DNA of 64,000 bases, from the NCBI RefSeq assembly GCF_030463535.1, contig NC_132892.1:33906109-33970108 (forward strand). Reading direction: 5' to 3'. The notes under the pieces were generated by a model. That model was not told the origin of the DNA. It ran no database searches and saw only the letters and a list, made by a program, of their open reading frames with translations. Both the position numbers and the translations under genes were made by a program. Shown in pieces: positions 10,979-41,968 of this stretch (position 1 is its first letter; every line of letters begins with the position of its first letter). This DNA is from Salminus brasiliensis. Lineage: Eukaryota > Chordata > Actinopteri > Characiformes > Bryconidae.

Positions 10979-13900
10979 ATGGTGAGTTCAGACGAGCGCA
11001 GTAACGGTCATTTCAGTCCACAGCCTCCTCACATTTGGGGTTTCCCCCTCGTTTGTGTCCATTTGGACGCGTTATTTCTCCTCCATAACTCCACCAGCTG
11101 GAGATCTGCTACTGTCCAGAAGATATGAGATGAGCAGAAGTAGGAAAGGTGGAGATGGATGGACAGCTCTGCTTCTCAGATCCTCCTCATGTTCTCTACA
11201 AGAGCGAGGAGAACCCAAACTGGAGGGGAATAACACTAGAAGTTGGAGCTTGATGGTGAGGAACAGCCTCAAACTGGAGAACCTTGGAGAACCTCAATAA
11301 TAGGAGTGCATGGGAATGACTGACCGGTCACCCTAGAATTACTGACCGCCTGGTCGTGCACTGTTTAAATGGCAAATGTTTAATACTACAACAAAAAATA
11401 AATAGAAAGTGGGCAAAAGTATTGGGACACCTGCTCATATCCTGTGTTTGTTGGAGTAACTGTCTCTACCAGGGAAGAAGACTTTCTCCTAGATGCTGGA
11501 GGATGTTGGATAATGATGATGATGATGATGATGATCATGATCACCACCCCACCTCATCATCCCCAACTCATCCCAAAAGTACTGGATGGAGCTCCTCCAC
11601 CACCATCATTCCAGAGAACACAGCTCTTCTTCCACTGCTCCACAGCTCCTCAATGCTGGGGGGCTTTATAACACCCCCCTAGCCCACACCTGGCATTATT
11701 AGGCCGCATGGTGCCAATAGGTTCATCTGCTTTTGAGAGTCCCTATTTTATTGACAGTACTTCTCTACAGGGACTAGACAAGCTGTGTGTGTATCTGTCA
11801 GCAATCTGTATGATATGATATACTTTCTATATGTGATTTTTTTTTTTATTGATATATAAGAAATATGATTTAAAAAAAAAAGCTCTGACCGTGTTAATTT
11901 AGCTTTGGTAGACTGATTGGTTGCTCTCTAGGTTCTTCAGGCTGGTTCACTGAGCCGTAGGTCAGTGGCCTTCTACTCAACAAACAAAAATAGCAAAAGG
12001 CAGAGCAGAGAGACGGTGCACTGACCAACAGTAGAGCTGAAGATGAGACTGTCAGCACTAGAGATGGGTCAGTGGGATATACATTTTTCATAGAAAAGGC
12101 GACTGACAAAAACACTGGATTGAGAACGTTGGGCACTGAAGAATCGATGAGGGTTCGTGGAGTAATACGTACTTCTATACCAGGCGTTGGTGGTGGAGCA
12201 GGGCATTTTGCTGTGTGGTTCTTCTTAAATATCTCCAGGAGAGCCCTCAGACCCATGTCCACCCCCCCAACCTCCCTGTTTTCAGAATAAACAGTGCCTG
12301 TTGTGAGTGACCCAAGATCTGACCCCAGTGAGCAGGCAAACTCTTTAGTGACTTGAGTGATCAGTGTGAAGTAAGTAAGCAGTGTGAAGTGAGACTGAGC
12401 TCTGAGGACATCTCCACCAAACATGGGCTACTGACTGGGCCAGTGCCCAGGGGTCCACGACTGTCAGGGACTTGGGACTAGGTAGGTCAGGCTTGATTCC
12501 ATGGCTGGTGGTGGTTAGCCCACCATGCTACACCAATACAAGTCATTGAACAGGACTTCTAACCCTACATTCTCCGGTTAGGTCTTCTATTTCTTCTCAA
12601 AACTATGAATTCTTGAGGATATTGGAAATATTCCTTTGGGATTTCGGTCCATGTTGACATGATTGCATCTTGCAGCTCCTGCAGTTTTTATGCCCTGAAT
12701 CTCCCATTATACCTCATCATAAATGTGTTCTTCTGGATTCAGGTGGATCTGCTGACTGGGAAGAACCACCACCGAAGAGTACTGAACTCATTGTCATTTT
12801 TATGAAACTGATTAGAGAAGACTTTAGCTTTATGACATGGTTCCTCATCATGCTGGAAGTAACTGTTAGAAGATTAACAGTAGGTTAAAATGGTGTCCCA
12901 AGTCTGAGATGACAGGATCTAGGTGGGATAGAGCTAAGCTGGATATATTCTAATGATTTAAGGAGGCATTCACTCCAAATATCAGGGTATGGACCTCTCT
13001 GAACCCTCTGAACTCTGCTGAAGACTAAAGCCTCTGTTCTTAAAGATACAATATTTAATGCTGTGTGTATTTGATTCATATGGTTTCCCTGTGTTTATCA
13101 AACAGGAATTTCAGGACCTCAGGCCTTCTCCTCTCCCCAAAATGAAACCAGTGCATCACCAAGAAGACGGCGATGGAGACCTGGAGGGTGTGGACAGGGT
13201 GTTGGTTGTTATTAAAACAGAACCAGATCATCCAGAGGGAATCGGTTCCTTCGTTGAAGAGCAGCACGTCCTGCAGCTGCCGGAGAACGCATCCAGTTCG
13301 TTCCCCTCGATTCCTGCAGGGAGGTGGGGAGGTGGATCTGAAAGGGAGAGCCAGCATACACTCGAGGATGATGATGAGGAGGAGGATGTACGCAGCTCAC
13401 TCGTCGTTATTAAAGTGGAGCCAGATGAACAAGAACTGGGTTCCGGTGGTGACTTCCATTTTTATCATGAGAAAAATGAGGCAGAACTTCAGGGAATGCC
13501 CTACTATTCTTACTGTGAGGAAGATCCAGAGCATGAAAACAGCCAAACGTCTCCAATAGAGAATATGAACTTAATTACGCCAGGTAAGTGAATCGCATTT
13601 GGATTATATTCCCAGAGAATATAAATTCACTGAGAAATGAGAAGTAAAAGACCTTAAAAGACCTTTGATTGACCGTAATTTCTGATGTTTGCCATTTCAG
13701 GTGAGCATGGCCAACCCTCCAAAGGAGAGCACAAAGGACTGAAGTCTTACTGCTGTTCTCAGTGCGGAAAGACCTTCTCCAAATCGTCTGCCTTTTACAG
13801 ACACATGAGAATACACTCTGGTGAGAGGCCCTTCCAGTGCACTCAGTGCAATAAAACCTTCACCCAGTCGACTTCGTTTAAAATCCACCAGAGAATACAC

Positions 13901-14602
13901 ACCGGAGAGAGGCCTTACCAGTGCTCAGACTGTGGGAAGACTTTCAAGCGCTTAGATAACCTTCGGATCCATCAGAGAACTCATACCGGTGAGAAACCGT
14001 ACAAGTGTTCTTACTGTCCGAAGACCTTCACGCGATCGCATATCCTTCAGAACCACGAGAGAACTCACACCGGAGAGAAGCCGTACCGGTGCTCTTTCTG
14101 CTCTAAGAACTTTACCCGATTGTGCATCTTTCAGATCCACCTGAGAACCCATACTGGAGAACGGCCTTACCAGTGTTCAGCCTGCGGGAAGAAGTTCGTG
14201 GACCTTTCGAATCTTAAGAATCACGAGAGGATACACACCCAAGAAAGGCCGTATCAGTGCTCCCTGTGTGAGAAGAATTTCATCCAGCTATCCGGCCTTA
14301 CTAGCCACATGAGAAAGCACACCGGAGAGAAGCCTTACCAGTGTACCATCTGCGGGAACAGATACAGCGCCTCATCTACTCTTCACGACCATAGGAGGAA
14401 AAAACACATGGCTTCCTCCATCGCCACTCCATCTTCAGCAGTTCTGCTGTCGGGACCTGTTCTACCACCGTTTGAAATGAATGAAGAGTTAGACTCCATG
14501 AGGTATAATCAAATGGACAGGATGCCCATCCCACTCGGAACTGGAACGAGTATTGACCCTTCAACTAATGCCTCAGGTATCCAGGTGTTCCTGGATTGCT
14601 GA
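10979..14602 (+). CDS. C2H2 zinc-finger protein 2 (8 fingers)
   Basis: Predicted exons: 10979-10981 (ATG, donor GTGAGT), 13106-13583 (donor GTAAGT) and 13701-14602, together 460 residues. Same plan as its neighbour: an acidic exon 2 with two V-I-K-x-E-P motifs, then eight C2H2 fingers and a Ser/Pro tail. Against gene 1, the Asp/Glu run is three residues shorter, the end of exon 2 is unrelated for about 20 residues, and finger 1 and the tail are diverged. The rest of exon 2 and fingers 2-8 are almost identical in bases. Intron 1 is 2.1 kb, against 0.6 kb in gene 1, and contains a MITE. Likely a nuclear sequence-specific DNA-binding protein; target unknown. The frame could also continue past CCTCAG/GTATCC at 14573-14582 by splicing, which would change the last few residues. 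Confidence 0.85.
11412..11800 (-). mobile_element. Family A MITE in intron 1 of zinc-finger gene 2
   Basis: Reverse orientation: GGCAAAAGTATTGGGACACC end, then GTAACTGTCTCTACC, CCAGAGAACACAGCTCTTC and GGACTAGACAAGCTGTG. The far end has lost the terminal inverted repeat. It is absent from intron 1 of gene 1, so it inserted after the duplication or was lost there. Confidence 0.8.
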
Positions 14603-16852: not shown

Positions 16853-19800
16853 TTAAGGTTTGTCTCCTGTATGCTTCTTGAAATGTTTGGTGAGGTGTCC
16901 CGACTGAATGAAGGTCTTGTCACACAAAGAACACCGGTACGGCCTCTCCTCCGTATGGGTCCTCTCGTGGTTTCTGAGACTCGACAAGTACAAGAATCGC
17001 CTTTCGCAGACGAAGCACTGGTAAGGCTTTTCACCAGTGTGAATTCTCTGGTGATTCTGATACACATCTAAGCGTGTGAACGTCTTGGCGCACTGAGAGC
17101 ACTGGTAAGGCTTCTCTCCGGTATGAGTTCTGCAGTGGTTCTGATAGATGTGCAGCCGGTTGAAACTCTTCCCACACTGAGAGCAAAGGTAAGGCTTCTC
17201 TCCGGTATGAGTTCTCTGATGGAGCTGAAGGACGTCCGTCCGCGTGAAGGTCTTGCCGCACTCAGCGCACTGGTAGGGCTTTTCTCCAGTATGAGTTCTC
17301 TCGTGGGCCTTGAAAGATCTGGACTGGGTGAAGGATTTGTCACAGTGAGAGCACTGGTACAGCCTCTTACCAGTGTGTATTCTCATGTGACTGTGAAAGG
17401 CTGTGGACTTGGAGAACGTATTTCCACACTCAGGACAGGAGTAAGACCTCAGTCCGCTGTGTTGTTTGTCCCATCGGCAGGAGGCCAAGACACAATCCCT
17501 GTACCTGCCGTCTGCATGAATAGCTTTTCCTGGAATCTGTTGAACGGAAGGTGGTCTGCTCCCATTAGCCAAGGACGACTGACCGGCGTCTCCTGAAACA
17601 TCAAGAAATGACACGCAAATGACAACATGGGGCCAGTTTTAAGCTTTTCCTGGACAGTAGAGACAGTTACTCCAACAAAAGCAGGATCAACTCTTTTAAT
17701 AGCCTTGATTCTGAAGAAACTATGATTGCGCAGGTGTCCCAATACTTTTGTCTATATAATAATAGGGCTGGGCGATATGATAAAAATATAAAATCTCTAT
17801 GTTACCACAGACTAAATACATCAGTAAGATTCTTATAAACTACTATTCAGATCCTCTCCTGTACTGAATACAGTGATTTATACTCAACATCTGCTGCTTT
17901 TCATCTAATGAACCCTTCAGTCTAATTACACTGTTAGTGATGAAACCTGCAGCTGATCAGTGTTTATTAAGCACTGACAGTCTCCTCCATATGCTTAGAA
18001 AAGCTTGTTGCTATCATGTTAACAAAATTTATCATGATACGATAAAATATCATCATATCGCCCAGCTCTACTATATAGAGGACCTTCATTAAACATGAGC
18101 ATGGGGCCAGTTTTAAGCTTTTTCTGGACAGTAGAGACAGTTACTCCAACAAAAGGGGTTCAGGATCAACTCTTTTTAATACCCTTGATTTCAGAAGAAA
18201 CAATGATTGCGCAGGTGTCCCAATATTTTCGTCTGTATAGTAGGGCTGGGTGATATGGTAAAAATCCAAAATCATGATATTTAGACATTTTGTTACAAAT
18301 CAAAATACATCAGTACCGGCAGAATCTTAAAAACGACTATTCAGACCAAATTTATTCAAGATATGATAAAAATATTGTCATATCGCCCAGCTCTACTATA
18401 CAGTGAACCTTCATCAAACATGAGCATGTGGCCAGTTTATGGAGTAAATATAGATAAATCTGATCAATAGATGTCTCATTATCTGCAGAGAACATACTTC
18501 CACACAGAATAGTAGACACCAGAACAAGGCTGAGATGGAGTTTACAGGGCGTTCGATTGGGGAAGAGGAGCTTCAGGCATGGTCCTCCTTCCAAAGACTT
18601 GACATGTGAACCCTTCTTTTCCTTCTCCAAACTCAAGCTAATCTTGGTTGCATCCTTCCAGAGAATGCTGTTCCTGTTCCACTCATGATTGTAGTCGTCT
18701 GACAGTGATCCGGTGATCTGCCTCCCTCAGTGTTATGGACATGACTGGATGTTGTGAAGGGGTATTCCTTCTCCAAGGAAGGACTACTCGTACAGTTGTC
18801 TACCATGGCTTCTTGGTGTTGACATGCTCTGGAGTCAATTCCACTTGTAGGTGGTCTAGGGAGCTCTTACTACGTGATCCAACAAAGAGGTGTTGGTGCA
18901 AGTAAAGTAGGCTATCAACCTTTCAGAGAAGAGATGCACCAGCGAGCTCAGCAACACCAACAGGCCTGGAAAGCCATGGCAGACAACTAAAGTAGATGAT
19001 CAAAGCCCTTTTTCTTTGATCCTTTCAGATTAAAACAGCTTTAATGCACTTCACTTACTTGTAGTTAAGTTCCCGTGGCCTCTCACCAACTCCAGCCTTG
19101 GATTCCAATCCACCTGCTGGACTGACCACGTCTGTACCGGGGTCTGCTTGCCACTGCCGCTGTAAAGAGGCCAAGGAACGTCCGCAGAGTGTGCTTCGGT
19201 CTTACAGAGACAAGGCAGGCAGGGGTCCTCCTGCTGACCCATGAGCTGTTCCTCACGGTCAGATTCACAGTTCATTCTCTGCAGATCTGGCTCTGTTTTA
19301 ACGGCTACCAAACCAGGCACCTGGAGAGGGTGGCGGGCCTCGTCTTCGTCATCCCGCACTGGCAGTGCGTTTGGCACGTCCTCATACCCATGTTGGACGT
19401 GCTGGTCTCCGGCACTTTGTAGAGGTGGACTCAGTTCCTCTGGTTCTATTTTAATGACGAACAGACTGTCCACACCCTCTGGATCCATGTGTTTCTGGTG
19501 CTGTACTTGTGCAGGTGGTCTAGGAGGAGGATACGCTGGCAGTGAAGGACAGGTTTCCTGTTATAGAAATAAACAGAAATCATCAAATTTCTATAATATT
19601 AAATATTCACTATTACCAGCTCTACCACTGGACTATATGTTTAAATGTTTGTGGACGCCACTTCTAATGAAACCATTCAGCTTCTTTGAATGGCACCCAC
19701 AGCTTGTCTAGGCCTTGTAGAGAAGTACTGCCAATGGAATAGACTCTCTGGAGCAGATGCAACATGAGCCGGTTGGCACCATGACTAATGGCAAGCGTAG

Positions 19801-21978: not shown

Positions 21979-22044
21979 AAATAAATAAATAAGCAGGCGC
22001 AATAAATAAGCAGGCGTCCCAATTCTTTTGTCCACATAGTGTAT
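21842..22044 (+). mobile_element. Family A MITE, internally deleted, with (CA)n inside
   Basis: Both termini are present (CACTATATGTCCAAAAGTTT and CAATTCTTTTGTCCACATAG). The whole middle is replaced by a (CA)n run (about 21936-21976) and an AAAT run, so this is a minimal ~200-bp derivative. Confidence 0.85.
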
Positions 22045-22081
22045 GCATGTGTTGTTATTTCTAACAGAAAGTAAGCTCATC

Positions 22082-22123
<42 letters not shown>

Positions 22124-23884
22124 TTATTTATATATTTTTTTGCATTACCCATTAACACACCAGTCTTGTCGCTGGTTAATGATCAATCAAGCCCTTGCTT
22201 ATCTGAAACAGGTGTGTCAGAGCAGTGCAGGTGGGGCCTCCAGAAGTGGCGTTGGGAAACACTAGGTGAGGAACACTCAACACTCAAGCAGAAGCATTAT
22301 ACAAAATATAAAATCTCATCAGATCTTATAAGGTCTGATCATTTTAGATCGGGTCATAATATCCAGTATTTCTCTATTTGAGACTATCTAGTCTGATCTC
22401 ATAGTGATTAGTTTGATCTTCTATATATTTCCACTAGATGTAAGTAAGACATTGCTTGTCTAAATTGTCTGAACATGCTGTTCACGTCTTTACCTGCTCC
22501 CCCATTCCCCACAACAAAATGAATGAGATGAAATATCATTTGAACATGCACTGTGGTGCAGCCTTAAGATCTTAAGATCTCTCCAGTCTTCATGCCGGTG
22601 GTGTTACTCCAGTTTGTCTTCCATAAACTTTCTTTAATTAGTGTTACTTTGGTGTACTTAGTGTGTATATATATATATATATATTGAATCTTGAATCTTG
22701 AAAAAAAAAACAGCAGATCCCACTATTGTGCTGCTCAGAGGCCTTCCCTGCTTTTCCCCTCTTAAACCTGGGGGAACCAACGTTTTGACAATCACATATG
22801 CAAAAGTTCTGCTACCCCTGTTCAAAAGACGTGTAAAGAAATGAACAGATTCCTTTGGAGGGACTTTTTTTATCTTACACATTTAAACATAATTTCTGTT
22901 TATTTACTGAATTGATCAGGTTGGAAAATTACTATTTATTTAATTAATATTATTTTAATAGATTGAAAATGTGGCATGTGTAAAATTAATGCCACAAATT
23001 ATATTAAGCGAATAAACAGTAATTGAAATATGTCTTAGTCTAGAAAGACACTTTACACTGTATTCAAATACACATATTAATCATCATGGGGTGCCCAAAC
23101 ATTTGCATATAGCGCATTATAGCGCTATATGAAACTGAAACTGATTTTATGGCATGTAGCAGAAATGACATGCTCCTCAAAAATGACCAACATGTTCAAC
23201 ATACCGTGTGCCACACATACGTTAGGCCTTAGGTCGCCTTACCCTGGTACCCTTTCGTTTTCGTGTGCAGTCACAGTTTATGATCGCAATAGATATTTTA
23301 ATAAGCCCTGAGGGAAATGTCCAGACACTGCATATTACAGGAATGCCTCCATCTGAGCGAGCGCCTAGGATTTCCTGGAAAGCCTGAGACCACTGGCACA
23401 CTGCTGTAATCTGTAACATGTGCAGTAGTTGATAATATGTATTTAAATATTGCTAAATTAAGTCAGATTATGTTGAACATATTGTCTCCTGTGTGTTTAT
23501 TGCTTATATATTATGCTATATTAAGATTATATTATATATATGATATCATACACAAGGCCATGTATATTTGCTGTAAACTGATAACGGTGACCTTTGGTTC
23601 ACAGCAGTAAGGAAGATATCAAGCAGACCTAAAACAGAGCTGGAACACAAAGGGAAATACACATTCGGCAGTGATACTGGGTAAATATGATATTTTAATA
23701 AAAGTAAAATATCATAAAATGCTGACCTGTATGACGTTGTGTAAATATAATAATGCACCACCTTCACGCTGTAGAGGCTGTTGAGGTGCGATCAGAGAAA
23801 TCTGCAGCTAAATTAGCAAAAGCTATAGAAGTTGTTTACTCGTGTTGCTGTGATAGGCTGAATACCTTCCCTCCGTGACCGACA
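22045..23884. other. Intergenic region upstream of the NLR gene
   Basis: (AT)n at about 22085-22120 and 22665-22684. Fragments such as GGTGCCCAAACATTTGCATA (about 23090) look like ends of other DNA transposons. The 100 bp before 23885 would hold the NLR promoter, but I see no clear TATA box. Confidence 0.5.
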
Positions 23885-26800
23885 ATGGAGTTTGTGTTTG
23901 AACTGCTGGCTGCTCTGCTGATCGTTCTGTCCACCTGGTTCCTAAGTATGACCTTTCAAACCCGGCTCATTGCAGGTAATATTGTTTATGAGCTACTTTG
24001 CTACAGCATGCCAGTTTTATCAACCTATTACTGCATATTTTAACAGTGAGTTCTTACTATTTTGAGGACACCCTATGACAATCTTTGTCTTTTTTTATAT
24101 ATTTAAACATCTGGATGTTATAAGAGATGGAGGAAATATGTGAGGAAAACCTTTGCACACCCTATGCTCTGATAGTTGGTATGTCTCCCCTTGGATGAAA
24201 TAATTTACCAGGCTCTGACATCAACTGGGAGAGAGTGTTTCCCACTCCTCCATGCAGAAATCTTTCAGCTGTGGGACGTTTCAGCTTTAGCTTTTAGACA
24301 GATGGCCTCCCATATCCCTCAAGCTCCCTCTGAGACAGTAAAGAAGTCCTAGGTGATTCTATATGTTGGAGAGATCTCCAGGCCCTACTGCAGGAAAGCA
24401 GCTTCAAACCATAACATGTCCACCTCCATGCTAAACAGCAGAGTTCTTGTGCTCGAATGCTGTGTCTGGTTTACCCCATATGTGTCTCTGTGTCCAAATA
24501 ATTCAGCTTTCGATTAATCTGGCCAAAGCACATTCTTCCAGATGTCCTGGTCTTGTTCTAGGTCTTCTCTTGCTTTGAGGTTCGAATGTCCAGATGTTTA
24601 AATACACTAAAAATACTAAGTATTAATAAAATTAACTTCTGCTGCCTTTTGGATGCTACCACAGCCCAGACTCCATCCATCCAGTCCACCATCGTAGCCC
24701 AGACTCCATCCATCCAATCCACCGCCACAGATGAGACTCCCTGGGTTCAGTCCTCCACCACAGCCCAGACTCCATCCATCCAGTCCACCGCCACAGCCCA
24801 GACACCATCCATCCAGTCCACCGCCACAGCCCAGACTCCATCCATCCAGTCCACCGCCACAGCCCAGACTCCATCCATCCAGTCCACCGCCACAGCCCAG
24901 ACTCCATCCATCCAGTCCTCCGCCACAGCCCAGACTCCATCCATCCAGTCCTCCGCCACAGCCCAGACTCCATCCATCCAGTCCACCGCCACAGCCCAGA
25001 CTCCATCCATCCAGTTCACCGCCACAGCCCAGGCTCCATCCATCCAGTTCACCGCCACAGCCCAGGCTCCATCCATCCAGTCCTCCACTATAGCCCAGAC
25101 CCCATCCATCCAGTCCACCGCCACAGCCCAGACCCCATCCATCCAGTCCACCGCCACAGCCCAGACCCCATCCATCCATTCCACCGCCACAGCCCAGACC
25201 CCATCCATCCAGTCCACCGCCACAGCCCAGACCCCATCCATCCATTCCACCGCCACAGCCCAGACTCCATCCATCCAGTCCTCCGCCACAGCCCAGACTC
25301 CATCCATCCAGTCCACCGCCACAGCCCAGACTCCATCCATCCAGTTCACCGCCACAGCCCAGGCTCCATCCATCCAGTCCTCCATCGTAGCCCAGACTCC
25401 ATCCATCCAATCAACCGCCACAGATGAGACTCCCTGGATTCAGTCCTCCACCACAGCCCAGACTCCATCCATCCAGTCCACCGCCACAGCCCAGACCCCA
25501 TCCATCCAGTCCACCGTTACAGCCCAGACTCCATCCATCCAATCAACCGCCACAGATGAGACTCCCTGGATTCAGTCCTCCACCACAGCCCAGACTCCAT
25601 CCATCCAGTCAACCATTACAGCTCAGACTGGAGGAAGCATCAATGCTCCTGCACTGCACCACAATGTCATACATGGCCCTGTCAGTATTGAAATTTGCTC
25701 AAAACACAAAGATGATTGTAAGTATGACTTTATCATTAAATGTTTTCTGTTAATAATAAACAATTTATTAACATGATAAAGATCTATTATTACCAGAAGA
25801 AATAAATATATCATTATTATTTTTTTTTTTAAAGATTATCCAGATGGAAGAAAACATTCTAATGGTAATGACAACGTTTTCACTCTATAAATGCTAATCC
25901 ACTATTACCTGGATAACAATGATAACCTTAACCTCACCCTTAAATTAACCCTAAATCCTAATCCTAAACTTGACCAAAATCTCAGGGTTAAGATTAGGTT
26001 TAGGGATTATATTCATCTTACAGTTCAGTTGCATTTAATTGAATATTAACTGAATGAGGTGAGGATCTACGAGGCATCCTAGTAAGGTGATACCACTATT
26101 TTCACAATCTCCTGAGTGGTGCAACTGTCTAACTGCCTCATGCTAACCCTTACCCTTCCAGCTTGGTGGCAATGTGTGACGAGGCAGAGACTTAGCAAGT
26201 AAAATTAGCTTGGAGAAAATTGGGGGAAAAAAATATGTTAATGCTGCAAAACTGTTATTAGTAATTATCACTGACACACCAAAAAGCACTTCCCGCACAT
26301 TCTTCACCACATAGCAACCATAATGTCTGGATTTTGCTTTTCCACATATTTCCAAACAGCCACAAGTCCTCAATGGATTTCCACTTAACGAACTGTGCGA
26401 CCTCTTACATGGTCTTGTTTTGCCGAGCCTCCTTTAGGTGATCACACAGGATAAACCCATCGAAAATACTTGCTAAACATCGATGTAGGACATACAGTAT
26501 ATGCCTGCCAGCTGTTCTTACTGACTGCTGCTCTGTTTTCTCAGTTTCAGATACGGCCGATTTGCGCCACATCTGTGTGAAGCTCAAGTCTTCTTTCATA
26601 GAGAAATTTGGCATGATCGACAGCACAGCAATAGAAGGAAAGCAGACACCCCTTGAGGACGTTTATACAGAGCTTTACATCACTGAAGGTGAGAGCGATT
26701 TGGTCAACAATGAACATGAAATATGGCAAATCGAGAGAGCGTCTCGAGTACAGGCATCACACGACGCTTCAATCGCCTGCGATGATATCCTCACACCCTC

Positions 26801-29800
26801 AGAAAGGAGCAAGAAATGTAGGATCGTCCTGACCAAAGGGATCGCTGGTATTGGAAAATCGGTTTCTGTGCAGAGGTTCGTCCTCAACTGGGCGCAGTGT
26901 AAAGCCAAAAAGGATGTGGATCTCGTGTTGTACATGCCCTTCAGAGAGCTTAATTTGTACAAGGGTCAGTGGAGTCTTCAAAAGCTTCTTTGGAACTTCC
27001 ATCCTGAGCTAGAGGACGTAAAAGCTTCTCCCAACGTGATTTTTAGCAGCAGAATTGTGCTGATATTGGACGGCTTGGATGAGAGCAGACTGCCTTTGGC
27101 TTTTGAAAGCAACCAGCTGTTGTCAGATGTGACAAAACAGACATCCCTTGATGTTCTGATAACAAACATTCTAAAGGGGAACCTACTGAGTTCAGCTCAG
27201 GTCTGGGTGACTTCGCGACCAGAGGCTTCGCTGAAAATCTCCAGATACACTGACCGTGTAACGGAAATAAGAGGCTTCACCGATCAGCAGAAACTTGAGT
27301 ACTTCAGAAAGCAGATTAAGGACGAGACTCTGGCCAATGCAATCATCTCCCACGTTAAGATGTCTCGGAGCCTCCACATTATGTGTCACATACCAGTGTT
27401 CTGTTTGATCCTGGTATCTGTGCTCCAGTCCGTGCCAGCTGAAGATACCGAAATACCGAAAACGTTGACCGAAATGTACATACACTTCTTGATCATTCAA
27501 ACACGCTTGGACAGCAGTAAACATGGAGAAAACCTCCTAATGAATCCTGTAGTGATTTTAGAGTTCAATAAAACCTTAATTCTCAAGCTTGCCAAGCTGG
27601 CTTTTGAGGAACTGATGAAAGGCAACTTGATCTTCTCTGAGAAAGAGCTGAGAGATTTCAACAGTGATCTTAGCAAAGTCTTGATGAGCACGGGACTGTG
27701 TACTGCCATCTTCAAGAGGAGGCGTGGCATCTACAGAGAGAAGTTCTACAGCTTTATTCACATGAGCTTTCAAGAATTTCTCGCAGCTCTTCATGTATTT
27801 CTAGCTTGTGTAAAGAAGGACAGAAGAACACTGGAGATATTTTTAGGAAGTGGCACGGAGCGGGAGAACATGTCCCTGCAGGATCTGCTAAAGAAAACCG
27901 TGGATAAAGCACTCCTCAACGCTCATGGTTCTCTAGATCTTTTCCTCCGTTTCCTCCTTGGCATCTCTCTGGAAGCCAATCAGGACCTCCTGCAGGCCTT
28001 GCTCTTGCACAGAGAGGACAGCGCTGAGGTTATCGAGAGCACCTGCAAGTACATTAAAGGCATTAGGAGGAAGGACATCTCCCCAGAAAGATGCATCAAC
28101 CTGTTCCTTTGCTTACTCGAGATGAATGACAACACACTGCATTTGGAGATCCAAGAGTACCTGCAGTCAGAAAAGCGATCCACCAGAGAGCTCTCGCCGG
28201 CTCAGTGCTCTGCGCTGGCGTACGTGCTGTTGATGTCGGAGGAAGTGCTGGACGAGTTTGACCTGAAGAAATACATCACGTCAGTGGAAGGTCGGAGAAG
28301 ACTGGTACCGGCTGTGAAGTGCTGCAGAAAGGCACTGTAAGCAAACATTATTAAAAAGTCTAGAATTGCTCTATATACAGTGTCCCCAAAAGTATTTGGA
28401 CACATGTATGGGAAAGTGTGGAACGGAATTCCAACCAGACTGCACTAAGCACAAAGGTGGGAATGGAAGGAAAGGAACTGCTCAAGCCATATTTTCGTAC
28501 ATACCAACCACTCTTTTGAAAGGCAAAAATATATCATTATAATTATATAATAATAATAATAATAATAGTAATAATAATAAAAATTCAACTATATTCAATA
28601 TGAACCTTATAAGAACCACTTTCTTTCTTTCTTTCAGTTAGTGACCACTTTTGAGGCCCACCTCCCTTATAGCTCCTCTAGATAGATGTACAGTCACTGA
28701 CTGTAGCCCATTTGTTGCTGCGCTTATCTGCTGCATTTGTGAGCCTCATTGGGCAGTTTCTACATTGTATTTGGGTGGTAGATCCAGACATTGGTTGAGA
28801 TGGTACTGTTCATGGTGTAGCGCTGCTACAGGTTTATCAAGCAAGGATTTGATGGCAATGGTCAAAAGCCGATCCGCACAAAGAGTCCTTCCAGCTTCAA
28901 GTACGGCTCGGCTCGACCTGCCATCCTTTAAGATCCACGGAAGACGAGCGTCCAGACGTTTTACTGTCCTGCACCGAAGTTTTTACTTCCCCTGGGTGTC
29001 CGAACAACGCTCACTGTCCTCAAACCCAGACTGAAGACTCTCCTCATCTGAGAGTACTCAGGCGAAGAGAAGAGTACTATGGTCTCCATATTGACTTGTG
29101 TTTAGTAGAGTCTAAGAGGTATCTTTAAATTATTAGTCTATTTAAACTAGCTGAGGTTTTTCTTGAGTAAATAGCAAAGCACTTTTGTAAGTCGCTCAGG
29201 AGAAGAGATGCCTTACATTTAAATGCCCTTAATGTAAATGTACATTTTATACACATCAGTGTCAATGCTGGCTGTCTCTGACTTTACACCAGCAAAATGA
29301 ACCGACATGCTTATATGTGTATATGTATGACGTATTTCAGGCTCGCAGACTGTGAACTTTCCGAGAAGTCCATTGACAGTGTGGCCTTGGCACTACAGCT
29401 GGCCAACTCGCACCTGAGAGAGTTGGATATGAGTTACAATGATGCAAATGCATCATTCAGCACAGAAAATAAGCGTAACGTAGGGGTCAGCCTGCTTTCG
29501 GATGGTTTAAAGAGTCCAAACTGCAAACTGGAAACTTTGAGGTTAAGTCTTCTCCTTTATACTTATTTATACAAAAACATGCAAATTTCTCTTTTTTTCT
29601 TAATATTTGTGTTGCTAATAATTTGTCAATGTCTAACTATGGACAAAAAGAGCAACCCTTTAACCTAATTCCAATTTGTAAATAATTATATCAGGCTGGT
29701 GAGATGCAATCTCAACCAAGAAAGCTGCAAAGCTTTGACTGAGGCTCTAAGCTTGAAATGGACCTGCCTGAGAGAGCTGGACCTTAGTACCAATGACCTG

Positions 29801-32252
29801 CAGGATTCTGGAGTGGAGCAGCTCTTGAAAGGACTGAAGAGTCCACACTGTAAACTGGAGAAACTCAGGTCAGAATCCGTTGGAACAGTTTTACTCAGTT
29901 AGCGGCAGCATTTATAAAGGTTGAGTAATTGTTGGTGTTTCAGACTTATTGGATGCCATCTTACTGAAGTCAGCGGTGAGACACTGGCCCTAGCTCTCAG
30001 CTCAGACTCAACACTGAGGGAGCTGAATCTGAGTGACAACGACCTGCAGGATTCAGGTGTGAAGCTACTCTCAGTGGGACTGGGAAGTCCACTCTGCAAA
30101 CTGGAGATACTGAAGTAAATATACTGACTTTCACCTTTCTCTCGAAGAATACAGTGTGTGCATGTGGTTCCTAAACAAGCCCTGTTCTCTCTGCAGGTTG
30201 TCGGGTTGTATGATCACAGAGGATGGCTGTTGTTCTCTGGCTTCAGCTCTGAGCTCGAATCAGTCTCAACTGAAAGACCTGGATCTAAGCTATAATCATC
30301 CAGGAGAATCTGGAATGAAGCTGCTGTTGAGCTGTAAGCTGAAGACACTGAAGTGGGTATACTGTAATTCTTATGACGGTGTTCATAGGCACTCTTAGAC
30401 TGTAGGCTTTTGGCTGTTGAGTTGTGTGTGGTAGGAGAAGGTAACTCTGCATGAGTACCAAAAAGAGAGTGGGCATATTTGGCTTCTGCTTTTTATCCCA
30501 TCCATGCAGTAAAAACACACACAGTGGGGCTCAAGGCCCTAACAGTGGCAGCTTGGCGAGCCCGGGTATCGAACCCACAACCCTGTCATCAAGAGCCCGG
30601 AGCTCTAACTGCCGAGCCACCACTGGCACCACAGCATTTAGCAGATGCTCTTCTCCAGAGCGACTTACAAAAGTGCTTCGCTGTTCACTCAGAAAATCAC
30701 AAAAGTCAATATGGAGACCATAATACTCTGCACTTCGCCCAAGTCCTCTCAGAAGAGGAGGGTCTTCAGTCTGGGTTTGAGGACAGCGAGCGTTGGACTC
30801 TGCTGTTTGGACACCGATGGGAAGTTCGTTCCACCACTTCGGTGCAGGACAGTAAAAAGTCTGGACGCTCGTCTTCCATAAAGAATCCTTAAAGGATGGC
30901 GGGTCGAGCAGAGCCGTACTTGAAGCTGGAAGGGCTCTTGGTACAGATCGGCTTTTTACCACTGACATTATTTCCAACCGGCAGACGTAAAGCACATATA
31001 TTAGGCTGTGGATTATAAAGTGGACTGAAAACTGTTCGATTTTTGCATCTTAACAAAAGAAATGTATCATATAACATAACATAAACTGCGAAATGTAATT
31101 GTAGCACACTACAAATAGTTTCTTTCACAATTTCATAGTCATTTATTACATAACACAAATATGCCCCAACTACCTAAGACATCTCCTCAAAGTGGAGGTC
31201 AAATTCCATATACACTCCATAACTTTGGGGAAATCGTGACATTGGATAAAAAAATTACACAAGAAATTATTAGACATTAGATAATTAGACAATAAATCAC
31301 TGCGCTTCTCCTTTTTAAATTGTTAAATTGTTGACTGCTTTCATACATGCATTGGTGAGAACCTGTTTGTTATTATTATGGCCAAAGTATTGCTACAACT
31401 TTTGTATTTAGTAGCGTCTAAGCTTAGATGAATCATTTGGATCCTAGCTGTTAGAAACTAGCTAAGGGTATTTTCTGAGTAAACAGTGAAGCACTTTTGT
31501 AAGTCGCCCTGGATAAGATGTAAATGTAACATTGTTTCCCATAGCAATCCTCTTATCATTGTGTATTTCTTATTGTATATGTAGCACAGACCATGGAGGA
31601 CAGGGCCGGATCAAACCAGGCCTTGCTAAATGTAAGTTCTGAGGAAATTACAATCCTACAGTACCTTCCAATGTACAGTTGTATAGTTAACCCACATCTA
31701 ATTGGCCTCCCATCCTCAGATGCCTGTGAGCTCACACTGGATCCGAACACGACAAACACCAACCTCACTCTGTCTGAAGACAACAGGAGGGTCATACAGC
31801 AAAGACAGAGGACGGAGTATCCCAAACACAGAGAGAGATTCGAGTTCTGTAAGCAAGTCCTGTGCAAGGAGCCGCTGTTCGGACGCCACTACTGGGAGGC
31901 CAAGTGGCATAAGAAAATGATCACTGGTCTGACCTATAAAGAGATCAGCAGGAAAGGACAAGGGGATGACTGCAGTCTGGGGTTTAATGACAAATCCTGG
32001 AGCCTGGAAATTGACAAACTTTGCCAAAGCGTTTGCCACAAGAGTAAGAGCACGGTGAAGGGCGGCTCCACCTCCACCCGGGTGGGAGTGTATCTTGACT
32101 GGCCAGCTGGCACTCTGTCCTTCTACAGCGTCTCCGAACGACGCAAACTGACCCACATACACACGTTCCAGTCCAGGTTCACTGCGCCCCTCTATGCAGG
32201 CTTCAAGCTTGACGTGCCGCAGTCATCAGTTTCACTGTGCAGCGTGGATTAG
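23885..32252 (+). CDS. Fish NLR receptor: hydrophobic N-terminus, 11-aa repeat stalk, FISNA-NACHT-LRR-B30.2
   Basis: Predicted exons: 23885-23975, 24665-25717, 25835-25864, 26545-28336, 29341-29541, 29695-29868, 29944-30114, 30197-30352, 31585-31631 and 31720-32252. Every junction is GT-AG with matching phase, giving 1415 residues and no stop. Residues 1-30 are a hydrophobic segment with Glu before and Arg after it. Residues about 31-350 are about 29-30 copies of an 11-residue Thr/Ala/Gln/Pro/Ser repeat. FISNA begins near residue 396 ([15 protein letters not shown]). NACHT has Walker A GIAGIGKS at 490-497 and Walker B ILDGLDE at 565-571. Four leucine-rich-repeat exons (about 989-1222) and a linker exon ([11 protein letters not shown]) lead to PRY-SPRY/B30.2 (about 1239-1415; [20 protein letters not shown]). 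NLRs are cytosolic innate sensors, and the B30.2 module is a fish addition. FISNA through B30.2 is certain. Joining exons 1-3 rests on phase and splice sites, and an alternative start is ATG 24586 in the same frame as the repeats. The first three introns are phase 1. Confidence 0.85.
24130..24585 (-). mobile_element. Decayed Tc1/mariner-like transposase fragment
   Basis: On the - strand, broken frames give pieces like [25 protein letters not shown] and [14 protein letters not shown]. These follow the order of the central catalytic region of Tc1-like transposases. Stops and shifts are frequent. It lies in intron 1 of the NLR model. Confidence 0.45.
24665..25640 (+). repeat. 33-bp coding minisatellite in the NLR gene
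   Basis: About 29-30 in-register copies of a 33-bp unit encoding [11 protein letters not shown]. Variant units encode [16 protein letters not shown]..., ...I-H-S and ...A-P-S-I-Q-F. A larger block (the D-E-T-P-W unit followed by S-T-T-A-Q units) recurs near the start and twice near the end, so multi-unit duplications have occurred. Because 33 is a multiple of 3, other frames on both strands are open too. Confidence 0.95.
28830..29235 (-). mobile_element. Dispersed repeat family C, reverse, in an NLR intron
   Basis: Reverse complement of the 20030-20430 element: TTCCAGCTTCAAGTACGGCT, CCTCAAACCCAGACTGAAGA, GTACTATGGTCTCCATATTG, and GCACTTTTGTAAGTCGCTC at the end. It lies between the NACHT exon and the first LRR exon. 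Confidence 0.75.
30510..30635 (-). mobile_element. tRNA-derived SINE fragment
   Basis: Reverse complement reads GGTGGCTCGGCAGTTAGAGC with an A-box-like TGGCTCGGCAG, then GGGTTGTGGGTTCGATACCC with a B-box-like GGTTCGATACC. Same element as 37815-38160 and 55965-56230. In the intron before the last two exons of the NLR gene. Confidence 0.65.
30640..30965 (+). mobile_element. Dispersed repeat family C, direct, in an NLR intron
   Basis: AGCAGATGCTCTTCTCCAGA, GCGACTTACAAAAGTGCTTC, CAATATGGAGACCATAATAC, then GAGCCGTACTTGAAGCTGG. Opposite in orientation to the copy at 28830-29235. A remnant of only its tail is at 31405-31525. Confidence 0.75.
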
Positions 32253-33681: not shown

Positions 33682-36600
33682 ATGTCTGTGGAGACCAGTG
33701 GCTGTGAAGATGGAGAGGTCACTATAACCATCCAGCTCACTCAGGAGGAGAGCTCTGCGGACTCTGGTACCTGCACCAGGGCGGTGGGCACTGACCTCAC
33801 CATGATGGACATTGGGATGCTGGAGGACCTGCAGAGTGAGAACATGCAGCTGAGGAGGCTGGTGGCTTCACTGGAGGCCAAATTAAAGTGGAGGGAGGAG
33901 GAGGAGGAGCAGCAGCTAAACACTGAGGTCTGTTAGAGTGCATCATGGTGCTTTAAGGGAGGGGGGGTGGTCTAAGATGGCTAAGGTGAAGGGAAGCAGA
34001 CGTCTGAAGCTCTAATAAAAGCTTCTAATAAAACACGCTGCCGGATGCCTGAGACACTGTTCTACCAGAGTTCTGAGAAGAGCTCGGCTCTAGAACCTGC
34101 TTTTAAAATCAGATCATTAAAATGGTGGAGGGATACATGCTGCAGGGTGTAGTGCGGCTACAGAAAGTAGTCCCTAAAGAAAACCTCACCATCTCAGTTG
34201 GATATCTTGGTCCTGGAGCTTGCCAAACTGCACTCTAGCACTGGATGACACTTGCTGATCATTAGATTAGATTTGTTATTTGAATCTCCCTCTTGGTGGC
34301 GCAGTAGAGCACTGTTTTGAAGCAGTTCTACGACTTCCAGTGACAGCAAACCAGACAAAAGTACAGCCTCCAAACATGGTGGAGGTAGATTCACACACTG
34401 TTACTAGTTTGGTGATACACTGTGTGTCCAAATATTTGTGGACACCCCTTCTAGTGAACCCAAATGTACACACACACATACACTCGGCTTGTCTAGTCCC
34501 TTTAGAGAAGTACTACCAATAGATTAGGACTCTGGAGCAGATCAACATTGTGACCCTATTGGCTCCATGCTGCCTAATAATGCCAGGCGTGGGCTAGAGG
34601 GGTGTAAAGCCCCCCAGCATTGAGCTGTGGAGCAGTGGAAGAACTGTGTTCTCTGGAATGATGGTGGTGGAGCTCCATCCAGTACTTTTGGGATGAGTTG
34701 GGGAGTTGGGGATGATGAGGTGGGATGGTGATCATCCAACATCCTGACCTCACTAACTCTCTTGTTGCTGAATGCAATAAAATTCTCATAGCAATGCTCC
34801 TCCAAAATGTATGTGTCTTCTTCTCTGGACAGTAGAGACAGTTACTGCAACAAAAGCAGAATCAACTTTTTAATACCCTTGATTAAAAAAAAAAAAAGAT
34901 GTTTGAGCAGGTGTCCCAATACTTTTGTCAACATAATGTGGATCTCCTCAGTTGGTGGTAGCTGGTCAGCAGTGTTTTTTTTTTTTAGGTGCTGTTTGAG
35001 GACTTGCAGAGGGCAACAGGGACGGAAGGCAGCAGAGACCAGCCCACAGTACCGGAGCTGGAGGAGGAGCACAGTCTGAACTCCGGTGGTCAGTCTGGAC
35101 TGACCGCCACAGAAACACAGGACAACCATGAAAGTGAAAACCAGTGTGCACCTCTGAAACCAGCTGATATGCCCAGTCCCTTTCCTGCCTGTAACACTGA
35201 CCCAAGCCATGTGGGATTACCTTACCCTGCATACAGAGGAGAGGAACAGCAAGCGCCATTAGACCTCTGTGCAGTGAAGCTGAGGAACAGCAGGAGAACA
35301 GGGGAGCACAAGTCCAGTGATGAACAGTCAGACTCAAGTGAGTGTTTGTGTAGATTCATACTGGATAATAATGTTATTACAAAGATAAGATAGTCCTTTA
35401 TTATTTCCGCAGTGGGGAAATTCATACTGTGGGGAAAGTCATACTGGATATTAATGCTATTAGAGCTTCATTTGGGATATTAATGTTATTAGAGCTTCAT
35501 ACGGGATATTAATGTTATTAGAGCTTCATACGGGATATTAATGCTATTAGAACTTCATACGGGATATTAATGTTATTAGAGCTTCATACTGGATATTAAT
35601 GTTATTATAAGTTCATACTGGATATTAATGTTATTATAAGTTCATACTGGATAATAATGTTATTAGAGCTTCATACTGGATATTAATGTTACTATAAATT
35701 CATACTGGATATTAATGTTATTAGAGCTTCATACTGGATATTAATGCTATTATAAATTCATACTGGATATTAATGTTATTAGAGCTTCATACTGGATATT
35801 AATGCTATTATAAATTCATACTGGTATTAAATGTTATTAGAGCTTCATACTGGATATTAATGTTATTACAGATTCATACTGAATTTTAATGTTATTAGAA
35901 CTTCATACTGGATTTTAAAATGTTGCACTTATCAGGTCTTGTTTCTGTCTTTCTTCAGAAACTACAGGAGAGCCCAGCCAGTTATCCTCTGATTTTGGGA
36001 GTAATCTCTCTTCTTCAGAACTGGTGGACCACCACATGAAACTTTACAGTGGGCTGAAGTTCCACTCACAGTACGGAATCGCCTTCTCAAAATCGCCTCA
36101 TCTCAGAAGATGCGTGAGGTTACCCAGTAGTGACAGACGTTTCCAGTGCTTTCATTGTGGTAAGATGTTTGCACAGCTAAAAGACTTTAAAACCCATTAC
36201 AGAACCCACATCCAAGGGCGGCCCTACCAGTGTTCCCAGTGTGACAGGAGCTTTACATGCACGGCAAGCCTTACCATCCATCAGAAGGTCCACACCGGGG
36301 AGAAGCTGCACAAGTGTGCCCAGTGCAATCAAACGTTCGCTCTCTCAAGAGATCTAAAAAAGCACCGCAAGATTCATATCCGAGAGAAGCCTTACCAGTG
36401 CTCCACCTGTGGAAAGAAGTTCTTGCAGCTGTCGATACTGAAGATCCACGAGAGGATGCACACCGGAGAGAAGCCGTACCAGTGCTCCCAGTGTGGCAAG
36501 ACCTGCACGAGGCTGGACAACCTCAAAATCCATCAACGGATGCACACTGGAGAAAAGCCCTACAAGTGCCCCGTCTGTGGGATGCAGTTTTCCTACTCCT

Positions 36601-37163
36601 CCATCCTCAAAAACCACCAAAGGACGCATACCAAAGAGAAGCCTTACCGGTGCTCCCAGTGCAAGAAGACCTTCACTCACTCGGCAAGCCTTACCAACCA
36701 CCAGAGAATTCATACCGGAGAGAGGCCTTACCAGTGCTCAGAGTGCAACAAGACGTTCATGAGGCTCAGCGACCTCAAAACCCACTACCGGACTCACACC
36801 GGAGAGAAGCCTTACGAGTGCCTTCTGTGCGGGAAGAAGTTCTCCCACCCGTCCAACCTCAAAAACCATCAGCGGACGCACCTGAAGGAGAAGCCTTACA
36901 AGTGCATCCAGTGCGGCAAGACGTTCAGTCGGTCCACGTACCTCACAGCACATCTGAGAACCCACACCGGAGAGAAGCCCTTCCCGTGCTCCCAGTGTGA
37001 CAAACCGTTTGCGAGACTGAGCGACCTAAAAAACCACTACAGAGTTCATACTGGAGAGAAGCCCTGCCTTTGCTCCATCTGCGGAAAGGGGTTCGCCAAG
37101 TCGTCTGCACTTCGCCGGCACAAGCGGACTCATGCAGAGACTAAGAACACGACTATAACGTAA
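33682..37163 (+). CDS. C2H2 zinc-finger protein 4 (coiled-coil N-terminus, 12 fingers)
   Basis: Predicted exons: 33682-33927, 34989-35337 and 35959-37163, together 599 residues with phases 0 and 1. ATG 33682 is the first ATG in a frame that is open from 33181. Exon 1 ends in a short predicted coiled coil (LEDLQSENMQLRRLV and a Glu run), which could mediate dimerisation. Exon 2 is a low-complexity acidic and polar linker. Exon 3 holds 12 C2H2 fingers from about residue 243 to the end, most joined by TGEKPY-type linkers, with variants such as HIQGRPY, HIREKPY and HLKEKPY. Finger 5 has Cys where the core Phe normally sits (KTCTRLD). The N-terminus is unlike those of the other three genes, so it is not part of their recent duplication. 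Likely a nuclear DNA-binding regulator. A MITE lies at the end of intron 1 and a minisatellite fills intron 2. Confidence 0.85.
34416..34940 (+). mobile_element. Family A MITE, longest copy, in intron 1 of zinc-finger gene 4
   Basis: GATACACTGTGTGTCCAAAT at the left and CAATACTTTTGTCAACATAA at the right. About 525 bp, with every body landmark. It ends 48 bp before exon 2, so the branch point of that intron lies in or next to the element. Confidence 0.9.
35418..35930 (+). repeat. ~30-bp minisatellite in intron 2 of zinc-finger gene 4
   Basis: About 16-17 tandem copies of a unit containing TTCATACTGGATATTAATG followed by TTATTAGAGC or TTATTATAAA. The array ends close to the acceptor at 35958. 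Confidence 0.95.
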
Positions 37164-41087: not shown

Positions 41088-41968
41088 TTAATTAAAGGTA
41101 AAGGTTGTTGGGCCAGAGAAATGCCCACCGGAAATAACAGGGGCTGAGACCTTGCCGCTCTCTCCAGCAGTGATAGTCTGCTGGATTCCGGAAGCCCCAG
41201 GAGCCCCAGGAACGTGAGATGTTGTGGAGACAGTGCTGTCTACCACAACTGACTGGTTTTGTACTGCACAAAAGAGAGAGAGAAACACTATTAGAAGTCT
41301 AAATGTGGTTTATATAGTGTGTAAATTGATTTCGATGAAATTGGAGACCCCCAGTATTTACAGTGTATGTGAACCCTTTGGGTCATTGTGTTTCATTTCA
41401 TGACAACTGTTCAAAAACAGCTGCTCAAATAATGCAAAGAAATGATTATTATAATTATAATGTAAAGAAGTTATTATTCAGATTTAAACTCAACACTAAT
41501 ATCTGAACTTGAAGAGCATTCAGAAATCACTATGCTGAAATAACTTCAACGGCCAATCACAGCTCTCATGTCTCGGCAGGCTCTCCACTAGTCTTTCACA
41601 TTGCTGTTGGGAATTAATGCCGTTAAATGGTCTCTTATTTTTTTTCCAGAACTGAATATTGACTCCTGTGTGTGTGTAGTGTTTTGCACTGTTGCTTTAC
41701 CTTGTAAAAGTTTCTTCTGCAGCTGCTCGGCGAGACTGTTCTGTTGCATTTTCCTAAGAATCTCCTCAGCAACTTTCCCAGCATCTTGTTTGTACTGATC
41801 CTTCATCAGGTCCACAGTGTCCTCGCGGTTGGCCTTCTCCAGCTTGCACACAGGTATGGAACTGAAGCTGTTCACCACACCTTCCTTCAAGTACCATTTA
41901 AATTTTTTAAATTCCTCCCCCCGCATGTCCTCCAGGATGAATAGGAGCACTTCTGAGATGGTGGTCAT
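41088..41968 (-). CDS. Short pyrin-domain (PYD) protein
   Basis: Two coding exons on the - strand, 41968-41701 (donor GTAAAG) and 41263-41088, together 147 residues joined in phase 1. Residues about 1-85 form a PYD of the death-fold superfamily (VLLFILEDMRGEEFKKFKWYL, DTVDLM, LRKMQQNSLAEQL, here written in parts). The tail of about 57 residues ends VSAPVISGGHFSGPTTF, a motif I associate with fish NLR N-terminal linkers. No NACHT follows: a stop comes right after this motif, so it is a PYD-plus-tail protein that could act with ASC- or NLR-type partners or inhibit them. A splice acceptor at 41978 just upstream of the ATG implies a non-coding 5' exon. A TTTATT at about 40743 (AATAAA on the - strand) is a plausible polyadenylation signal. 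It could also be a truncated relic of an NLR gene. Confidence 0.8.
41401..41612 (+). repeat. Inverted-pair repeat, left copy
   Basis: GACAACTGTTCAAAAACAGC through TTTCACATTGCTGTTGGGA. The reverse complement, with small changes, is at 43087-43300. This copy lies in the intron between the two coding exons of the PYD gene. Just outside it, GTATGTGAACCCTTTGGG (about 41363) resembles a Tc1-like terminus. Confidence 0.75.

Follow-up and report, generated by a model that had tools for sequence, protein, structure and literature searches.

An NLR-C gene of Salminus brasiliensis with a putative N-terminal membrane anchor and a long repeat spacer

The stretch of Salminus brasiliensis DNA described here, referred to as the window, comprises 64,000 nucleotides (C15:33906109-33970108 of a 1.07-Gb assembly in 103 contigs) and carries an NLR receptor gene on its forward strand. 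Judged from its sequence, this gene is a fish NLR-C (FISNA-NACHT-LRR-B30.2) with a hydrophobic N-terminal exon and a long repeat spacer, and constitutes a new variant; the arrangement of anchor-like segment, spacer and NLR is probably real. The explanation favoured here, with a confidence slightly above even, is an NLR-C whose effector slot holds a signal anchor of the cytochrome P450 type, leaving the receptor tethered on the cytosolic face of a membrane. The effector slot, which holds a pyrin domain in other NLR-C genes, would be filled by a single hydrophobic exon acting as an N-terminal signal anchor, with the N-terminus lumenal or outside and the remainder of the protein cytosolic. The receptor would be pre-placed on the cytosolic membrane face, most likely in the secretory pathway, with a spacer of ~370 residues between the anchor and the domains for sensing and oligomerisation. 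Tethering would concentrate the receptor, the NACHT domains would oligomerise at the membrane, and the signal would be passed on via a linker motif at the end of the spacer. The 29 repeats of the spacer would have arisen recently, by expansion of low-complexity sequence already present in the linker; they would lengthen the tether and need not have a specific function.

The N-terminal half of the protein is encoded by four exons. Exon 1 (23885..23975, forward strand as for all exons of this gene; 91 nt) encodes the hydrophobic, signal-anchor-like segment and ends in a phase-1 donor (GCAG|GTAATA). Its start codon (ATG, 23885) stands in a good context, with A at -3 and G at +4, and an in-frame TGA lies nine bases upstream at 23876. 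Exon 2 (24665..25717; 1053 nt; acceptor CTACCACAG|CC, donor GATT|GTAAGT) encodes the Ser/Thr-rich repeat spacer and then the linker motif (25630..25716). The third is a mini-exon, YPDGRKHSN (25835..25864; 30 nt; acceptor TTTTAAAG|AT, donor AATG|GTAATG), with phase 1 on both sides; mini-exons are also present in a neighbouring NLR gene on C15 and in genes on C28. Exon 4 (26545..28336; acceptor TTTTCTCAG|TT) encodes the FISNA, NACHT, winged-helix and HD2 regions, including the Walker A motif GIAGIGKS. Joined through phase-1 junctions, the four exons form a single open frame of 989 codons up to a stop past the exon-4 donor, or 988 full codons when the donor ACT|GTAAGC at 28336/28337 is used. A first-pass annotation had proposed that these exons join in phase 1 with good splice sites, and the standard splice ends and the one open frame bear this out.

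The core of the protein is that of a teleost NLR-C. FISNA (PF14484, 1.8e-21) and NACHT (PF05729, 3.2e-27) lie in the same open frame of one large exon, as in teleost NLR-C/NLR-B30.2 genes, together with NOD2_WH (1.8e-11) and NLRC4_HD2 (3.8e-29). Further downstream, an LRR exon of 201 nt in phase 2 (29341..29541, ends read from the sequence) matches LRR_6 at 2.3e-4 and 21.4 bits, below the curated cut-off of 23.4 bits. A second, LRR-like exon of 156 nt, also in phase 2 (30197..30352, donor picked by phase), gave no match when its frame was searched against Pfam. The last is the PRY-SPRY (B30.2) exon (31587..32252), in which PRY (4e-17) and SPRY (2.2e-11) both exceed the Pfam cut-offs; its junction to the preceding exon is putative. 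In a genome search that scored 73 of 204 candidates, the NACHT exon gave 93 matches; apart from itself, the best is 52% identical. No FISNA-NACHT match besides the gene's own falls within the window. The Walker A motif and the exon-end sequence are nearest to zebrafish group 3 in the group table of PMC6988351 (cited, like the other papers here, from excerpts), where this group has GIAGIGKT, no pyrin domain and a B30.2 domain. The N-terminal exons match no Pfam family up to E 10 (most repeat units were omitted from the query, and the repeat frame was scanned alone). Two pyrin queries found nothing pyrin-like upstream of the NLR in the window; the sole window match at E 0.01 is on the opposite strand, at 41.7-41.95 kb.

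The hydrophobic exon is found at four distinct loci: the window, C15:33887325-33887432 (the neighbour), C28:27921587-27921694 and C28:27914837-27914944. This count is a lower bound, as the searches score the best candidates only. With window exon 1 as the genome query, only itself was recovered among the best candidates scored; the neighbour's exon, first spotted by local comparison, recovered the C28 relatives, and a C28 copy recovered the neighbour and both C28 copies. The two C28 exons, MESFIELLLAAVLVVLSFWLWRTRALTQ and MESVTELLLAAVLVVLSFWLWRTRALTQ, have their ATG where window exon 1 has it. In the neighbour the hydrophobic exon is followed by a linker exon with terminal motif, a mini-exon and FISNA-NACHT, and the C28 gene L005 has an identical order. 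Since this exon order and the phase-1 junctions recur in paralogous NLR genes, exons 1-4 are read as one gene, and the earlier claim that they belong together gains support. In the tree of NACHT sequences the C28 and neighbour genes are sisters (100/100). The hydrophobic exon was not found in the fetched stretches of two related genes on C1, where it may lie further upstream.

Conservation at the DNA level is concentrated on the exon itself. When window positions 22000-26600 were compared with the stretches fetched from C28 and the neighbour, only exon 1, together with the bases directly upstream of it, aligned at E < 0.1 (79 nt, 72%, to C28); outside exon 1 the matches to these stretches are short, with E 0.19 or worse. 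Between the window and the first C28 copy (C28a), exon 1 has a non-synonymous divergence (dN) of 0.39 and a synonymous divergence (dS) of 0.90 on 21 synonymous sites; between C28a and the second copy (C28b), dN is 0.03 and dS 0.15, and in both comparisons with the neighbour dS is saturated. Because the sole DNA match is exon 1 and the substitutions lean towards synonymous ones, comparison of the loci indicates that exon 1 is a shared coding exon and not a chance open frame. Two observations concern the neighbour's locus in its own right. Its hydrophobic exon (L049 6524-6635) opens with TG after the acceptor, and a split start codon A|TG is possible. The exon also exists as an identical copy on contig C70, which at ~3.5-16 kb carries a copy of the NLR stretch at C15:33.878-33.890 Mb with the same or near-same match scores, possibly the other haplotype or a recent duplicate.

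By hydropathy (Kyte-Doolittle and Hessa scales), the hydrophobic N-terminus noted in the first-pass annotation is a plausible predicted membrane segment, similar in the three paralogous exons. The best 19-residue Kyte-Doolittle mean is 2.16 for window exon 1, 2.22 for C28a, 2.02 for C28b and 2.09 for the neighbour. On the Hessa scale the best segment of exon 1 sums to -1.71 over 18 residues, and the five other segments among the top six of the exon 1-4 protein are all at or above +2.96. All four versions have acidic residues ahead of the helix (E2 and E6 in the window gene). Behind it stand one basic residue in the window gene (R27), two in C28 (R-T-R) and, with the histidine counted, four in the neighbour (R-M-R-H-L-T-R). 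According to the charge-difference rule, acidic residues before and basic residues after a helix favour an outside N-terminus and a cytosolic C-terminus, as in microsomal cytochromes P450, and this topology is therefore the one predicted here. NACHT requires cytosolic ATP, and NACHT and B30.2 of known vertebrate NLRs act in the cytosol. Because one membrane segment precedes both stalk and NACHT, placing them on the same side, the stalk should be cytosolic and beyond O-GalNAc glycosylation.

This bears on the mucin-like stalk proposed earlier, a description that fits the array by composition only (43% Ser plus Thr and 9% Pro over 319 residues) and does not extend to function, since a single helix would put the stalk on the side of NACHT, predicted to be cytosolic. 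Of the membrane-tethered NLR with an extended spacer, the joined exons and the plausible membrane start are retained, and the mucin-like function is not. It is very unlikely that exon 1 is instead a cleavable signal peptide or a type II anchor, with stalk and NACHT lumenal or extracellular and the stalk O-glycosylated in the manner of a mucin: the residues before the core are acidic, not basic, in the window gene, the neighbour and both C28 copies, the paralogues have basic residues behind the helix, and the use of NACHT and B30.2 in the cytosol by known vertebrate NLRs speaks against it as well. The composition of the array would suit such a stalk, as would an Ala-Ala pair behind the hydrophobic stretch, which the paralogues lack, and a sea cucumber NLR whose NACHT is reported to be extracellular (PMC13133943) offers a precedent.

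The view that the hydrophobic exon occupies an effector slot comes from L025, a more distantly related NLR placed on the same side of the tree of NACHT sequences; it has a pyrin-type exon upstream, in the position equivalent to the hydrophobic exon. This pyrin-type exon is 34% identical to the Pfam-confirmed pyrin domain encoded in the window (E 2.5e-11). In plant resistosomes, N-terminal helices insert in and permeabilise the membrane. By analogy, the N-terminal helix might itself be the effector, a ring of hydrophobic helices permeabilising the membrane after NACHT oligomerisation. Its position in place of a pyrin effector domain would agree with this, as would E2 and E6, which line up between the window and neighbour exons and also occur in both C28 copies; the helix, however, looks uniformly hydrophobic and not amphipathic, and a spacer of ~370 residues would break its coupling to the NACHT ring, which makes a pore-forming role highly improbable.

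Within exon 2, the tandem repeat (24665..25620) consists of 29 head-to-tail units of 11 residues (33 bp) when counted in the codon frame, matching the 29-30 estimated in the first-pass annotation. The units comprise 16 distinct DNA sequences, with no indel and no stop; Tandem Repeats Finder reports 33 bp x 29.4 at 24659-25629, with 87% matches and a score of 1445. A 23-base core of the unit, allowed up to three mismatches, matched the 1.07-Gb assembly 27 times, 26 times in the array and once on C1 (with three mismatches); the reversed-pattern control matched once. Going by these searches, the 11-residue expansion is private to the window gene and the hydrophobic exon is common to a few NLRs, making the two novelties separable. 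The open repeat frame is no evidence of coding by itself, because the array's other frames are also open, and support for coding comes from the paralogues. The acceptor-like sequence CCACAG|CCCAG occurs in 22 exact copies at a 33-nt register, the first being the real acceptor and the other 21 lying in units; in-frame alternative acceptors could thereby give a stalk of varied length.

Linker exons elsewhere differ in this part. In two C1 genes, imperfect 10-residue units resembling Q-x-x-P-V-Q-T-T stand before the linker motif, three in one and two in the other; the neighbour's linker exon is Pro/Ser/Thr-rich without repeats, and the C28 linker is short. Since the motif recurs in NLRs, the C1 genes have few units and the neighbour and C28 linkers differ, the array is interpreted from these comparisons as a private expansion inside a linker tolerant of length change, and the expansion may be neutral. 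In its strongest form this becomes an explanation of its own, in which the array is a neutral in-frame minisatellite on an otherwise short linker and the gene works like the other NLR-Cs of its group. That account is possible, if on balance doubtful. The restriction of the array to the window gene (0-3 units in the paralogues) agrees with it, and so do the 33-bp units, nearly identical and showing higher-order structure, a pattern expected from slippage or unequal exchange; the 29 units without a frame-breaking change speak against it, though a young array would look alike, and the shared hydrophobic exon is left unexplained. As regards the repeat itself, it is compatible with a tethered receptor. 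The repeat is probably the less important half of the arrangement, and the shared hydrophobic exon and the linker motif merit follow-up.

The linker motif forms the last 33 residues of exon 2 and recurs upstream of other NACHT exons, with a family consensus of about G-x-T-V-x-A-P-x-x-x-x-N-x-F-x-G-P-V-x-F-N. A profile of the motif was run on 30 NACHT loci (L002-L031, 1.5 kb upstream of each match) and on other fetched loci. Copies upstream of NACHT sequence are found on C1 (two, with the NACHT exons 3.6 kb and 7.3 kb downstream), in the C15 neighbour (and its C70 copy), on C28 (two), on C14 and at C15:33878042. Ten of the 33 columns are invariant in four copies, and 4 columns in an alignment of seven. 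The exon that carries the motif follows differing N-terminal exons: hydrophobic in the window, neighbour and C28 genes, apparently short and acidic at C15:33878042, and pyrin in a two-exon gene described below. Being the sole conserved non-globular element, the motif is, on sequence grounds, the leading candidate for a contact surface. A Pfam search with four N-terminal regions gave no family up to E 10 and no amyloid motif. A profile of seven motifs run against PDB sequences gave three matches (two thiolase entries and one structural protein) at E 1.6-8.3, which were dismissed as chance. A diverged, weaker copy, AQGGGIANVPFLHENVFYSSVYINFGADSIH, occurs far from the cluster at C15:6913434 (L061), with no NACHT match within the 3-kb locus.

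The two-exon gene lies on the opposite strand, 8.8 kb from the last exon of the NLR. Its exon 1 (41701..41968, reverse strand) encodes a pyrin domain (PYRIN PF02758, 4.1e-21) and ends in the donor ACAAG|GTAAAG; exon 2 (41088..41263, reverse strand) encodes a linker ending in the NLR linker motif (SGKVSAPVISGGHFSGPTTFTFN), followed by a stop. When a profile of the seven NLR motifs (pyrin-gene copy excluded) was run against the open reading frames of the window, the pyrin-gene motif ranked second after the NLR, at E 2.3e-6, the next other reading frame being at 0.24. An earlier six-motif profile had scored it at only 0.26; the E-value depends on whether the motif of C15:33878042, the nearest relative, is in the profile. 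Compared singly with the seven NLR motifs (2000 shuffles each), the pyrin-gene motif gave p values of 0 in five cases and of 0.002 and 0.0025 in the others. As a genome query it recovered only itself and, with E 0.77, the motif at C15:33878042 together with the C70 copy of that motif. The pairing is a single case. What looked like a second pyrin-plus-motif gene beside the neighbouring NLR was rejected, as the motif exon at C15:33878042 continues to a donor, a mini-exon and NACHT sequence; the first exon of that NLR, read by eye, is short (MEKEILEETEHDPST).

The two-exon gene could be the leading part of a former NLR whose other exons were lost. A bolder reading rests on analogy with fungal and filamentous bacterial pairs, in which an NLR with a short N-terminal motif and an adjacent effector with the same motif at its C-terminus are coupled by amyloid templating (PMC5485727, PMC7889193, excerpts). 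A vertebrate counterpart would have the anchored NLR, which lacks a death-fold domain, carry the motif as a short beta-type element beside NACHT and, once activated, template the motif on the pyrin protein encoded 9 kb away, with the pyrin signal delivered in trans at the membrane; the motif would then be a shared connector of a small NLR subset. The likeness to the known pairs (NWD2/HET-S, PP, BASS) lies in a motif of ~20-25 residues that is N-terminal in the NLR and C-terminal in a small effector encoded nearby (PMC5485727, PMC7889193). Unlike in those pairs, no known amyloid motif was matched (in Pfam and PDB sequences; bacterial BASS profiles were outside the search), and the partner is a pyrin-domain gene that is 9 kb away on the other strand, not adjacent. 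No amyloid-type motif was found described for fish NLRs in the open-access literature (preprints were outside the scope of this and the following literature search). Such a pair is considered decidedly unlikely.

Several observations weigh against a tethered NLR-C encoded by this exon chain. A segment within NACHT (residue 670) reaches 2.18 on the Kyte-Doolittle scale with a Hessa sum of +2.96, and hydropathy alone is therefore no proof of a membrane segment. Only a single basic residue stands close behind the helix in the window gene, which leaves its orientation less secure than that of the paralogues. In C28 and the neighbour the hydrophobic exon begins at a splice acceptor (ctcag) that is missing in the window gene, giving the latter a different 5' end; the neighbour's exon has no ATG at the equivalent place; and the second C28 copy has the first three exons followed by NACHT fragments in two frames and looks broken. 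In the NACHT tree no terminal branch is longer than that of the window gene (1.04), which is compatible with relaxed constraint, and the gene sits in an open fork relative to the other hydrophobic-exon genes, so the tree does not establish a single origin of the hydrophobic exon. In L025 the pyrin exon is placed upstream of NACHT with a putative shared transcript. Variation among the repeat units (9 synonymous and 12 non-synonymous distinct changes) gives a ratio of 0.54 in the coding frame versus 0.85 (with one stop) and 1.71 in the other forward frames, a weak skew with little sign of selection on the array. Finally, the case is known from one genome, from its sequence alone.

Three of these points, the absent acceptor, the long branch and the weakly constrained array, would fit an alternative in which the actual NLR transcripts use another 5' exon, or the gene is decaying, and exon 1 and the repeat exon are remnants unjoined to NACHT. 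This is judged unlikely, although less so than a lumenal stalk or a pore-forming helix: the ATG, donor and acceptors are intact, the frame is open across 29 units and the NACHT exon, the paralogues keep the exon order, and the only pyrin-like exon that the two pyrin queries found in the window is on the opposite strand.

Among known vertebrate NLRs, NLRX1 (named in PMC8699970) carries a mitochondrial targeting sequence, not an acidic-flanked hydrophobic anchor, and has neither FISNA nor B30.2. It resembles the window gene as a vertebrate NLR with an N-terminal organelle-targeting sequence. Teleost NLR-C/NLR-B30.2 genes have separate FISNA-NACHT, LRR and B30.2 exons and variable N-terminal exons, some with peptide repeats (PMC4852459, PMC6988351). 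The window gene shares the separate domain exons, the variable N-terminal exons and the interspersed C2H2 zinc-finger genes seen in zebrafish. However, the N-termini given in the excerpts are death-fold domains, repeats of ~30 residues or undefined 'X' domains; the window gene has neither of the first two, and its exon 1 starts differently from the zebrafish 'X' domains, which begin MAEERV or MEDTHS (PMC2268669). Neither a membrane segment nor an 11-residue array is described in these excerpts (PMC4852459, PMC6988351, PMC2268669). In the excerpted parts of a fish review, 'transmembrane' appears once in a list of NLR motifs, and the legend of the domain figure gives CARD, NACHT, LRR, PYD and FIIND only (PMC12436146). 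More widely, no fish NLR with such a membrane-type N-terminus was found described in the open-access literature, and the first-pass remark that no described member with a membrane-type segment plus this repeat was known agrees with that search.

Membrane-associated NLRs from other sources are only partly comparable. NLRP3 engineered to be directed to membranes still responds to triggers, but it is artificial, carries a pyrin domain and has no long repeat spacer (PMC12117088). The sea cucumber proteins AjNLRC4 and AjNLR-new are NACHT proteins with transmembrane segments, reported at the cell membrane; they differ in having Ig domains and two transmembrane segments, and AjNLRC4 has no LRR (PMC8699970, PMC13133943).

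Other features of the window include C2H2 zinc-finger arrays flanking the NLR (6870-7766, 13679-14602 (+), 16853-17638 (-) and 35919-37163 (+)), as on zebrafish chromosome 4. A thioredoxin-like exon (Thioredoxin_8, 1.5e-15) lies at 51098-50622 on the reverse strand, and a tandem array of 25 copies of a 60-bp unit occupies 1-1506, from the first base of the window.

Vertebrate NLRs are generally regarded as soluble cytosolic sensors that are recruited to membranes, the main case being NLRP3, which membrane clustering is thought to drive. Membrane insertion of the window gene's product, its topology, oligomerisation driven by the tether and signalling through the linker motif are predictions, and if they are true, a built-in anchor in a subset of fish NLRs would offer a natural way to test whether NLR activation can start at the membrane. 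The family concerned comprises hundreds of fish NLR genes with largely uncharacterised signalling. Should the linker motif serve in signalling and share that role with its copy in the pyrin-only neighbour, the two-gene NLR logic of fungi and bacteria would be present in vertebrates.

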